Positions 58,693 through 61,611 of a stretch of 64,000 nt of DNA are shown piece after piece (within the stretch, counting starts at the first letter, position 1; every line of letters starts with the position of its first letter). Both the position numbers and the translations under genes were made by a program. The stretch covers positions 2,469,725 to 2,533,724 of the forward strand of contig NZ_DF820425.1 in NCBI RefSeq assembly GCF_000617845.2, in the 5' to 3' direction. The notes under the pieces were generated by a model, which did no database searches, was not told the origin of the DNA, and saw nothing but the letters and a program-made list of their open reading frames with translations. Origin of the DNA: Bradyrhizobium sp. DOA9. Lineage in GTDB: Bacteria; Pseudomonadota; Alphaproteobacteria; Rhizobiales; Xanthobacteraceae.

Positions 58693-60630
58693 ATGAATTC
58701 GCGCTCCAAATCTGCCTTGAAAAAGTCTGCCTCGAACAAGTCTGCCTTGAACAAGACCGCTCTCAAGAGGTCCGCTCCCGGCAAGCCCGCTCTCCGCAAG
58801 CCAAGCCCCAAAAAATCCGCCGCCAAGGCAAGGCCCTCCAGAGCTGCGAGCAAGACCGGCAAGCTTCCAGAGTGGAACCTGGCCGACCTCTATTCCGGGA
58901 TCGACGCGCCGGAAGTGGCGCGCGATCTCGAGAAGATGGATGCCGACTGCGTCGCCTTCGAGACGGACTACAAGGGCAAGCTGGCGACAGGGACAGCAAA
59001 CGAAGATGGCGGAAAATGGCTCGCCGAGGCGGTGCGACGCTATGAGGCGATCGACGATCTCGCCGGCCGTCTCGGCTCCTATGCCGGCCTCGTCCATGCC
59101 GGCGACAGCGTGGACCCTGCAATTTCAAAGTTTTACGGCGATGTGTCCGAACGCCTGACGGCGGCGTCCACGCATCTGTTGTTCTTCGCGCTCGAGCTCA
59201 ACCGGATCGATGACGATATTTTGAATCGCGCGATGCAGGCCGCCGAGCTCGCGTACTACCGTCCCTGGATCGAGGATCTGCGCAAGGAGAAGCCGTACCA
59301 GCTCGACGACAAGCTCGAGCAGCTCTTCCTGGAGAAGGCGCAGACCGGCTATTCCGCCTTTAACCGGCTGTTCGACCAGACCATCTCCAGCCTGCGCTTC
59401 AAGGTCGGCTCCAAGGAGCTCGCGATCGAGCCGACACTCAACCTGTTGCAGGACCGCGACGGCTCCAAGCGCAAGAGCGCGGCGGAGGCGCTGGCCAAGA
59501 CCTTCAAGGCCAACGAGCGCACCTTTGCGCTGATCACCAACACGCTCGCCAAGGACAAGGACATCTCCGACCGCTGGCGGGGCTTCAAGGACGTCGCGGA
59601 TTCCCGCCATCTGAACAACCGTGTCGAGCGCGAGGTCGTCGACGCGCTGGTCGCCTCGGTGCGCGCAGCCTATCCGAAACTGTCGCATCGCTACTATGCG
59701 CTGAAGGCGAAATGGTTCGGCAAGAAGCGGCTGGCCTATTGGGACCGCAACGCGCCGCTGCCTTTTGCGGCGACCGACGTCATCGCCTGGCCGGAGGCGC
59801 GCAGTATGGTGCTGACGGCCTATCGCGGCTTCTCGCCCAAAATGGCCGATATCGCCGAGCGCTTCTTCACCGACCGCTGGATCGACGCGCCGGTGCGGCC
59901 CGGCAAGGTGCCGGGGGCGTTCTCGCATCCGACCACGCCGTCGGCGCACCCTTACGTGCTCATGAACTACCAGGGCAAGCCGCGCGACGTAATGACGCTC
60001 GCGCATGAGCTCGGCCATGGTGTCCATCAGGTGCTCGCGGCAAGGAATGGCGCGCTGATGGCGCCGACGCCGCTGACGCTGGCGGAGACCGCGAGCGTGT
60101 TCGGCGAGATGCTCACCTTCAAGCGGCTGCTGGCCCAGACCAAGAACGCGAAGCAGCGCCAGGCGCTGCTCGCCGGCAAGGTCGAGGACATGATCAACAC
60201 CGTGGTGCGGCAGATCGCGTTCTACTCCTTCGAGCGCGCCGTCCACACCGAGCGCAAGAACGGCGAGCTCACTGCGACGCGGCTCGGCGAGATCTGGCTG
60301 TCGGTGCAGGGCGAGAGCCTCGGGCCGGCGATCGAGATCAAGGCGGGCTACGAGAATTACTGGATGTACATCCCGCATTTCATCCACTCGCCGTTCTACG
60401 TCTACGCCTATGCGTTCGGCGACTGTCTCGTGAACTCGCTCTATGCAGTCTACGAGAATGCGAACGAGGGTTTTGCCGAGCGCTATCTCGACATGCTCGC
60501 TGCCGGCGGCACCAAGCACTATTCCGAGCTGCTGCGTCCGTTCGGGCTCGACGCCAAGGACCCGAAGTTCTGGGACGGCGGGCTCAGTGTCATCGCGGGC
60601 ATGATCGACGAGCTGGAGGCGATGGGGTGA
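58693..60630 (+). CDS. pepF: oligoendopeptidase F (M3 family)
   Basis: A 645-aa zinc oligopeptidase that degrades short peptides in the cytosol. The catalytic motif is HELGH (438-442), with the third ligand Glu in TASVFGEM. The PepF domain starts at about residue 55 (EWNLADLYSGIDAPEV). The first 55 residues are an added basic tail of repeated KSALKK/SNKSALNK/KTALKRSA-type units, not part of the usual M3 fold. Length of the core is normal. ATG 58693 is the only plausible start. Divergent from the sigma-54 regulator across a CtrA-type box. Confidence 0.94.
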   Translation: MNSRSKSALKKSASNKSALNKTALKRSAPGKPALRKPSPKKSAAKARPSRAASKTGKLPEWNLADLYSGIDAPEVARDLEKMDADCVAFETDYKGKLATGTANEDGGKWLAEAVRRYEAIDDLAGRLGSYAGLVHAGDSVDPAISKFYGDVSERLTAASTHLLFFALELNRIDDDILNRAMQAAELAYYRPWIEDLRKEKPYQLDDKLEQLFLEKAQTGYSAFNRLFDQTISSLRFKVGSKELAIEPTLNLLQDRDGSKRKSAAEALAKTFKANERTFALITNTLAKDKDISDRWRGFKDVADSRHLNNRVEREVVDALVASVRAAYPKLSHRYYALKAKWFGKKRLAYWDRNAPLPFAATDVIAWPEARSMVLTAYRGFSPKMADIAERFFTDRWIDAPVRPGKVPGAFSHPTTPSAHPYVLMNYQGKPRDVMTLAHELGHGVHQVLAARNGALMAPTPLTLAETASVFGEMLTFKRLLAQTKNAKQRQALLAGKVEDMINTVVRQIAFYSFERAVHTERKNGELTATRLGEIWLSVQGESLGPAIEIKAGYENYWMYIPHFIHSPFYVYAYAFGDCLVNSLYAVYENANEGFAERYLDMLAAGGTKHYSELLRPFGLDAKDPKFWDGGLSVIAGMIDELEAMG

Positions 60631-60673: not shown

Positions 60674-60712
60674 TTGAACTAAGGCTTCGGCGATGTTATA
60701 CATATGTATAAC
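60674..60712 (+). promoter_or_regulatory. toxin-antitoxin promoter and operator palindrome
   Basis: -35 TTGAAC (60674-60679), a 17-bp spacer and -10 TATACA (60697-60702). A perfect 18-bp palindrome GTTATACATATGTATAAC (60695-60712) covers the -10. Palindromes of this kind are the usual operators for autoregulated antitoxins. GGGAG follows before the antitoxin ATG at 60730. Confidence 0.82.
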
Positions 60713-60729
60713 TCGCGGGAGTCCATGCC

Positions 60730-60954
60730 ATGAAGATCGAGATCAAGAAGATTGGCAATTCCGACGGACTATTGCTGCCCCGCGAATTGATGCAGCGGCT
60801 CGATCTCAAGCGCGGACAGCAATTGCACATCGTGGAATTACCCGGCGGTGGTTTTCAGTTGCTGCCTTACGATCCCGACTTCGAGCGGACGATGGAAATC
60901 GCCGACGAGGTGATGGACAAGTATCGCGACACGCTCGCGGCGCTTGCGAAATAG
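60730..60954 (+). CDS. AbrB/MazE-family antitoxin
   Basis: A 74-aa protein with the swapped-hairpin DNA-binding domain (MKIEIKKIGNSDGLLLPRELMQRLDLKRGQQLHI, about residues 1-35) of AbrB/SpoVT and MazE antitoxins, then a helical tail (ERTMEIADEVMDKYRDTLAALAK) that should bind the toxin. It is the first gene of the pair, with its own operator palindrome. The Doc-like toxin starts 11 bp downstream. Confidence 0.9.
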   Translation: MKIEIKKIGNSDGLLLPRELMQRLDLKRGQQLHIVELPGGGFQLLPYDPDFERTMEIADEVMDKYRDTLAALAK

Positions 60955-60965
60955 TCGGCCATGCA

Positions 60966-61361
60966 ATGAGCGATCCCCAGGAGCCGCTCTGGATCACTTA
61001 CGAGCAGGCCGTGGCCATTCACGGGCGGCAACTCCGACGCTTCGGAGGCGCGCCTGGACTGCGTGACGAAGGCATGTTGCGGTCGGCGCTCGATCGCCCG
61101 ATCAACAAATGGCGCTACGAGCAGGCGCCGTTGGACGAGCTTGCCGCAGCCTATGCAGTGGGGCTCGCGAAGAATTATGCGTTTGTGGATGGAAACAAGC
61201 GTATTGCCTTCTTGGCGATGATGATTTTGCTGCACAAGAATGGCGTGGCGTTCAGTCCCGATCCGGCGGAAGCAACGATCATCATCCTCTCTCTCGCTGC
61301 CGGTGAAGTCAGCGAGGAGAGCCTGACGCGCTGGATCCGCGACAATCTGGATTCCAAATGA
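60966..61361 (+). CDS. Doc/Fic-family toxin, catalytic His replaced by Tyr
   Basis: A 131-aa Doc-type protein (death on curing). Family segments: WITYEQAVAIHGRQLRRFGG, PGLRDEGMLRSALDRP, LAAAYAVGLAKN and FVDGNKRIAFLAMMILL. The Fic/Doc motif H-x-F-x-[DE]-G-N-K-R reads Y-A-F-V-D-G-N-K-R here, with Y71 (TAT) at the position of the catalytic His (CAT or CAC); the rest of the motif is intact. Doc phosphorylates EF-Tu; Fic proteins transfer AMP. The ORF is full length and not otherwise damaged. ATG 60966 follows the antitoxin stop by 11 bp. Confidence 0.9.
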   Translation: MSDPQEPLWITYEQAVAIHGRQLRRFGGAPGLRDEGMLRSALDRPINKWRYEQAPLDELAAAYAVGLAKNYAFVDGNKRIAFLAMMILLHKNGVAFSPDPAEATIIILSLAAGEVSEESLTRWIRDNLDSK

Positions 61362-61458: not shown

Positions 61459-61611
61459 ATGGCTGACCATAGCGAAGTGGCGTACACCACCGCCGACGGC
61501 AACGACTACGTTGCCCACGAGCAGACCTATGAGGGCTTCATCAAGCTGGTGAAGTACGGCACGGCCTCGGTCGCGCTCATCGTGATCCTGATGGCGATCT
61601 TCCTCACCTGA
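61459..61611 (+). CDS. aa3-type cytochrome c oxidase subunit IV
   Basis: A 50-aa protein of the small alphaproteobacterial subunit IV family. Hydrophilic head (MADHSEVAYTTADGNDYVAHEQTYEGF), then one membrane helix (LVKYGTASVALIVILMAIFL). The DYVAHEQTYEGFI segment is the family signature. It stands upstream of the transhydrogenase genes, a neighbourhood I recognise in Hyphomicrobiales. It is separated from the other oxidase genes, which are not in this window. Confidence 0.92.
   Translation: MADHSEVAYTTADGNDYVAHEQTYEGFIKLVKYGTASVALIVILMAIFLT

Follow-up and report, generated by a model that had tools for sequence, protein, structure and literature searches.

The closest described relative of the locus reported here is the Phd-Doc toxin-antitoxin (TA) pair of P1. 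P1 Doc phosphorylates EF-Tu, and proteins that carry the family rule HxFx(D/N)(A/G)NKR are expected to be kinases, according to PMC4177925. As presented in PMC3920265, repression is strong by the Phd-Doc complex and weak by Phd alone. The laboratory mutant DocH66Y is described as non-toxic (PMC2686095, PMC10467106) and has served as a control that cells can overproduce in the absence of antitoxin (PMC10467106). How genomes escape or domesticate addictive TA modules is an open question. Corepressor activity is reportedly retained by DocH66Y, a finding attributed to the 1998 work of Magnuson and Yarmolinsky.

Chromosomal TA pairs are reported in reviews to decay by drift, inactive toxin mutants included (PMC7167474, PMC2654758). 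For instance, ccdO157 of E. coli (Mine et al. 2009, as related in these reviews) is, like the present locus, a chromosomal pair degenerating within a species; unlike ccdO157, the Bradyrhizobium locus shows recurring missense at one catalytic residue with the frame kept. Fic-fold proteins with altered motifs such as EcFicT have been proposed to have other activities (PMC5033356). The chromosomal Phd-Doc of Enterococcus faecalis has, as described in PMC13034048, an antitoxin whose N-terminal domain binds DNA at a single palindrome through a beta-sheet, which the AbrB-like antitoxin of the present locus might resemble; its Doc is described there as having the conserved motif HXFX(D/N)(A/G)NKR and differs in this, by description, from the toxin studied here. 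In the same genus, bat/bto of B. japonicum is also a chromosomal type II pair; it was considered as the same locus and rejected, because it is classed as vapBC in PMC8436566 and PMC6902015 and is thus a separate system. A search of the open-access literature yielded no account of Doc losing its His recurrently in nature.

The locus lies in the window, that is the whole stretch of 64,000 nucleotides that was analysed, and shares with DocH66Y of P1 (3dd7, 3dd9) the fold, the aligned active site and the identical His-to-Tyr change. As in P1 Phd-Doc, the antitoxin gene adjoins the toxin gene and a palindrome may mediate autoregulation. Unlike the laboratory mutant, the window locus is natural, chromosomal and apparently vertically inherited; unlike P1 Phd-Doc, its antitoxin is AbrB/MazE-like and not Phd. 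The same exchange with which Doc is studied at the bench arose here on three or more occasions.

The toxin and its operon

The features of the operon are collected in Table 1. The translation of the toxin frame contains GLAKNYAFVDGNKRIAF, and its start is most likely the ATG at 60966, since 90% of the rows with a residue in alignment column 1 have Met there. The span 60695-61361 given by the first-pass annotation holds as the stretch from the operator to the toxin stop, whereas the toxin proper most likely occupies 60966-61361.

Table 1. Features of the toxin-antitoxin locus and its neighbours, in window positions.
Feature	Position	Strand	Basis
pepF-like M3 oligopeptidase, normally found upstream (sometimes with an insert between)	58693..60630	+	profile and neighbourhood comparison
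Sigma70-like promoter TTGAAC-17-TATAC(A), -10 inside the palindrome	60674..60701	+	sequence pattern
Perfect 18-bp palindrome GTTATACATATGTATAAC, putative operator overlapping the -10	60695..60712	.	sequence pattern
Antitoxin gene, 74 aa, AbrB/MazE-like (P0002)	60730..60954	+	open frame, sub-cut-off profile matches
Toxin-like gene, Doc family, 131 aa (P0001), His-less	60966..61361	+	translation, profile searches, fold model
Active-site motif YAFVDGNKR; family rule HxFx(D/N)(A/G)NKR	61176..61202	+	translation, PDB alignment
Codon 71, TAT (Tyr) where the catalytic His is expected	61176..61178	+	sequence, orthologue alignment
aa3 cytochrome oxidase subunit IV (PF07835), normally found downstream in this genus and in near ones	61459..61611	+	profile and neighbourhood comparison

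The toxin scored 56.6 bits against Pfam Fic (PF02661, cut-off 24) and 60.8 bits against NCBIfam DOC_P1 (TIGR01550, cut-off 38.65), which places its assignment beyond chance. In a phmmer search of PDB sequences, chains of P1 Doc came on top (3dd7/3dd9 at 1.3e-15, 3k33, 3kh2); the stretch 'knyafvdgnkr' was aligned on 'rgyifndankr' of 3dd7, Tyr on Tyr, since 3dd7 is by its entry title the engineered DocH66Y. An AlphaFold2 model of the toxin (pLDDT 91.8) showed six helices as in the Doc fold. Its best structural match was 3dd7_A (DocH66Y-Phd; TM 0.84/0.89, rmsd 1.5, 32% identity), and all five PDB matches of the model with E <= 0.001 were P1 Doc. The catalytic motif deviates in the His alone. The predicted protein belongs to the Doc family by descent and fold, but its motif is not that of an active Doc toxin. 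This bears out the first-pass annotation, which had claimed a Doc-like toxin whose catalytic His is replaced by Tyr. On the toxin's own branch two further replacements were found at well-conserved columns, F65V (column 93% conserved) and F88L (99%). The only other Fic-domain match in the window's genome (L001, G000:C1:5604316-5604606, minus strand; 67 bits, above the Pfam cut-off) aligns poorly with the window Doc.

The antitoxin stayed under the cut-offs of PF04014 (MazE/AbrB; 22.3 bits against 24.7) and of TIGR02609 doc_partner (50.3 against 55.9). Its profile searches of Pfam and NCBIfam gave no Phd model at E <= 0.001, and the PDB sequences gave no match at E <= 1. As the antitoxin is AbrB-like, the locus is, judged on these profiles, not a P1-type Phd-Doc pair, and fold complementation as well as conditional cooperativity would be borrowed here from P1 by analogy. 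The window antitoxin is identical at 74 of 74 residues to several relatives.

Antitoxin and toxin are adjacent, a palindrome lies at the promoter and the two genes are co-inherited, as in a type II operon, with regulation predicted from the sequence. The promoter, operator and antitoxin that the first-pass annotation had listed are thus present, promoter and operator being putative. Among the 160 distinct full-length loci described below, the promoter pattern was matched 5' of the antitoxin in 147, including 17 of the 19 His-less loci, and the operator pattern GTTATAC-N2..6-GTATAAC in 129 (13 of the 19 His-less and 116 of the 141 His loci). The strict operator pattern was therefore unmatched in 6 His-less and 25 His loci, and each of these six, inspected by eye in the printed upstream stretches, showed a near-match such as GTACAAC or GTTGTAC.

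Histidine at codon 71 across the orthologues

The homologues place the window in Bradyrhizobium, and a set of 265 genomes of this genus was searched for the toxin. The gene was matched in 140 of them and was of full length in 136, full length meaning at least 100 aligned residues, so that frameshifts past about residue 127 would escape notice; the other four are the remnants of G182, G008 and G235 and the distant match of G004. The genus set was pooled with the best 80 of 90 relatives and identical coding sequences were merged, giving 160 distinct full-length sequences, the other Fic gene (L001), the remnants (L210-L212) and the distant match of G004 (L222) having been excluded before counting.

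His occupies column 71 in 120 of the 136 full-length genus orthologues, and 16 are without it (R 7, P 5, Y 2, V 1, C 1). In the 160 distinct sequences His was found in 141, the 19 others having R (8), P (5), Y (3), Q, C or V (one each). Somewhere in the motif HxFx[DE]GN[KG]R, 23 of the 136 genus orthologues deviate. An annotation of an intact-frame Doc can thus hide a probably non-catalytic protein, as in these 16 of 136 genus orthologues.

On a maximum-likelihood tree of the 160 sequences built with codon 71 left out, His is the ancestral state of the locus and its distribution requires at least 17 changes; 200 sampled bootstrap trees gave 17 changes in 190 cases and 16 in 10. Shuffled labels gave 16-19 changes, so the His losses are scattered almost at random. 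All losses but one lie on tip branches, which suggests that dead toxins are short-lived, and a His-less clade of several members occurs just once (L112, L117, L145). A single conserved locus thus provides 17 or more natural changes of one catalytic codon, for which the His-bearing sisters serve as controls.

The sister clade of the window toxin (L100, L092, L094, L007) has CAT at codon 71 in all four sequences, which makes a single C-to-T change the simplest origin of the window's TAT, as the first-pass annotation had proposed. Tyr arose separately in at least two further lineages (L021/L111 and L040). A subfamily with conserved Tyr was considered and rejected, the Tyr lineages being scattered and their nearest relatives having His. 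The first-pass annotation had also named as a refuting outcome that all close homologues have His and that the strain alone is mutated; the first half holds, but the strain is not alone. His-less copies occur in isolates and in MAGs alike (record titles naming a MAG: L040, L059, L060, L071). Additional motif changes are present in several His-less lineages (L117, L139, L145, L180), and the toxins of L139 and L145 look to be eroding.

Codon 71 underwent 18 amino-acid changes, more than any other of the 65 columns whose conservation reaches 85%; one of the 18 is a P-to-V change inside an already His-less clade. The other motif columns changed far less (N70 1, F73 5, D75 0, G76 2, N77 3, K78 5, R79 0), and the control His H19 showed no amino-acid change in 31 codon changes. 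Among the six motif codons 71 and 75-79, 18 of 28 changes fell on codon 71 (P=2e-8 under equal rates, a test that ignores mutation bias between codons). Three nucleotide changes recur at this codon, C>T, A>G and A>C. Read from these counts, the pattern is neither a mutational hot spot nor a general loosening of the loop.

When 347 genomes of the order were searched for Doc motifs of the GNKR type, 87 matches were obtained; of the 80 that lie outside the genus, 4 are without His (R 3, P 1, by eye), a count that omits more eroded genes since the pattern fixes the remaining motif. The difference from 16 of 136 in the genus is not significant (P=0.14), so recurrent His loss may reach beyond the genus and cannot be called a peculiarity of Bradyrhizobium on these counts. 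Two of these four, L230 and L233, have Arg and belong to one family. L233 adjoins pepF, as do His-bearing loci of other families (L228, L232, L240, L241, L244, L251, L252), and the pepF-linked pair therefore seems to be old in the order, with His lost outside the genus too.

Constraint after His loss and probable deletion of the operon

The toxin showed 0.59 replacements per synonymous change on His-less tips against 0.36 on His tips (P=4e-5), and the antitoxin 0.31 against 0.18 (P=0.007); these ratios come from Fitch parsimony, which on tips blends the time before and after His loss. The excess on His-less tips was strongest in the active-site loop, residues 66-82 minus 71 (odds ratio 3.7, P=6e-4). 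It was also seen at columns conserved at 95% or more (odds ratio 2.3, P=0.003) and at the weakly conserved remaining columns (odds ratio 1.5, P=0.004), this test of loop and columns, and not that of the tip ratios, being run without the long outgroup tip L060. Even so, the ratio of His-less toxins is far under the roughly 3 replacements per synonymous change that neutral mutation would supply, as computed from L084 (871 missense and 38 nonsense among 131 x 9 = 1179 changes). This suggests that catalysis is no longer selected in His-less lineages, with the remainder of the toxin still partly held.

In the 16 His-less genus copies, the toxin frames span 123-131 aa and the antitoxins 72-74 aa. 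The antitoxin accompanies all 136 full-length genus toxins and was matched in 137 of the 265 genomes, the extra match (G184) covering bases 4-201 of a contig. No clear antitoxin-only genome was found among the 265, and such an end state was rejected, the antitoxin of G184 lying at a contig end and that of G073 being an extra copy besides a full pair. This second antitoxin-like gene of G073 (G073:C5:38186-38401) is 67% identical.

Of the 265 genomes, 125 have no toxin match; pepF is present in 260 and oxidase subunit IV in 259. Among the matches listed, short gaps between these two neighbours were observed in the toxin-minus genomes G224 (154 bp), G014 (141 bp) and G061 (213 bp), against 832 bp in the window; other toxin-minus genomes have an insert of some 3-5 kb in the gap, for example G105. 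When the junctions of G224, G061, G105 and G182 were compared with the window, all four aligned from window 61299-61328 onward. Their scars (L255, L256, L253 and L257, respectively) comprise the last ~10-20 toxin codons, with ends that are similar and not identical. As the toxin 3' end is kept at four of four junctions, the pair would most simply have been present formerly and then deleted. The insert of G105 (L253, 408-3431) carries a membrane ORF of 1007 aa between pepF and oxidase subunit IV, which we take to be patatin-like from its GGGIR and GTS motifs. In G022, a stretch of some 3-5 kb lies between pepF and a full toxin-antitoxin pair.

Proposed origin and fate of the His-less toxins

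The best explanation, with a probability of about 0.6, is that the Doc kinase has been disarmed recurrently and kept as antitoxin partner and corepressor, the operon being sometimes deleted afterwards. A chromosomal type II TA operon would have been inherited vertically, its Doc-family kinase toxin would have been disarmed in the window by one missense, H71Y, and many sister lineages would each have been struck independently at the same catalytic codon. By analogy with DocH66Y, the window toxin may have lost both kinase activity and toxicity. The dead toxin, which stays full length, probably binds and stabilises the antitoxin and may act as corepressor on the palindromic operator, as in P1; a truncated Doc could presumably do none of these things. 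That a dead toxin is usable as a partner and a truncated one is not would account for missense with hardly any nonsense. Disarming would also lift the lethal cost of operon loss, because no active toxin is left once the antitoxin decays, and relatives may then have lost the operon by deletion, disarming coming first. The first-pass annotation had offered a silenced toxin, a different activity or a sequencing error, and the first of these is best supported, both by the description of H66Y as non-toxic (PMC2686095, PMC10467106) and by the relaxed loop.

Several observations speak against recurrent disarming with retention. The losses lie nearly all on tips, a pattern that fits plain decay too, and constraint is relaxed over the whole toxin, at weakly conserved columns and in the antitoxin as well. 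The latter argues against full domestication, as a fully domesticated corepressor should not relax. The eroding look of L139 and L145, the AbrB-like antitoxin with its distance from the P1 model, and the six His-less loci off the strict operator pattern count on the same side. A bolder version can be entertained only tentatively. In this version, His loss would be a recurrent selected first step that turns a kinase into a dead partner or corepressor, maybe still binding target or nucleotide, with both genes and the operator kept and the addictive operon deletable only from the disarmed state. If it were true, the genus would be a natural time series of the defusing of an addiction module. The ideas of disarming before deletion and of a dead corepressor become directly testable at this locus.

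The main rival is neutral decay only, in which drift inactivates the toxin of a functionless pair and loss follows, the inactive protein being idle. Such decay is in line with the cited reviews (PMC7167474, PMC2654758), and it accounts for the losses on tips, for the relaxed constraint and for deletion, with nearly half of the genus genomes lacking a toxin match and toxin scars at every junction compared. It does not account for the scarcity of truncations. Drift predicts about 4-5 nonsense changes per His missense (a mutation supply of 3.75-5.5:1, frameshifts not counted), but of the 139 genus genomes with a recognisable toxin (G004 left out) 136 have open frames, unbroken over about residues 6-126 or more, and 3 have remnants. 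In G182 and G008 only the last ~24 codons are left, and G235 is decayed with an in-frame stop, the sole stop among the 139; very short remnants such as the toxin 3' scars escape the toxin search. Under this supply, one nonsense or none in 15 events has a probability of 4e-9 to 5e-11, the events being the 14 His-loss events of the genus (17 minus L040, L059 and L060) plus G235. In addition, drift fits poorly with the much rarer change of the other residues of the catalytic loop and with the want of a clear antitoxin-only genome. Neutral decay only is on balance unlikely.

Far less probable is that the changed residue confers a new catalytic activity, as proposed for altered-motif Fic-fold proteins such as EcFicT (PMC5033356). 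Six different replacements (Y, R, P, Q, C, V) were found at codon 71 with no convergence, which leaves a different activity unsupported; further motif changes in several lineages and the relaxation of the loop also speak against it. More remote still is a sequencing or assembly error or a mutation of laboratory passage. The window codon itself may be in error, and culture can select toxin-inactivating mutations, but error is a poor explanation of at least 17 changes at one codon in isolates and MAGs, and replacements such as F65V and F88L would be expected in a toxin that died some time ago. The most remote alternative is a mutational hot spot, which is disfavoured despite the top rank of codon 71 among conserved columns, given the silent control H19 and the three different nucleotide changes that recur.

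Finally, the operator core GTTATAC..GTATAAC is extended to a long palindrome in L108, L110, L125, L132, L141, L144, L145 and L217, the longest being that of L144 with 50 perfect bp and that of L145 being similar with mismatches; the window has no extension. At least 6 extra perfect base pairs surround the core in 13 of the 129 core-bearing loci, with different flanks in all 13. These flanks vary between species yet stay self-matching, which resembles the outcome of template switching that perfects palindromes, or of selection for a hairpin.
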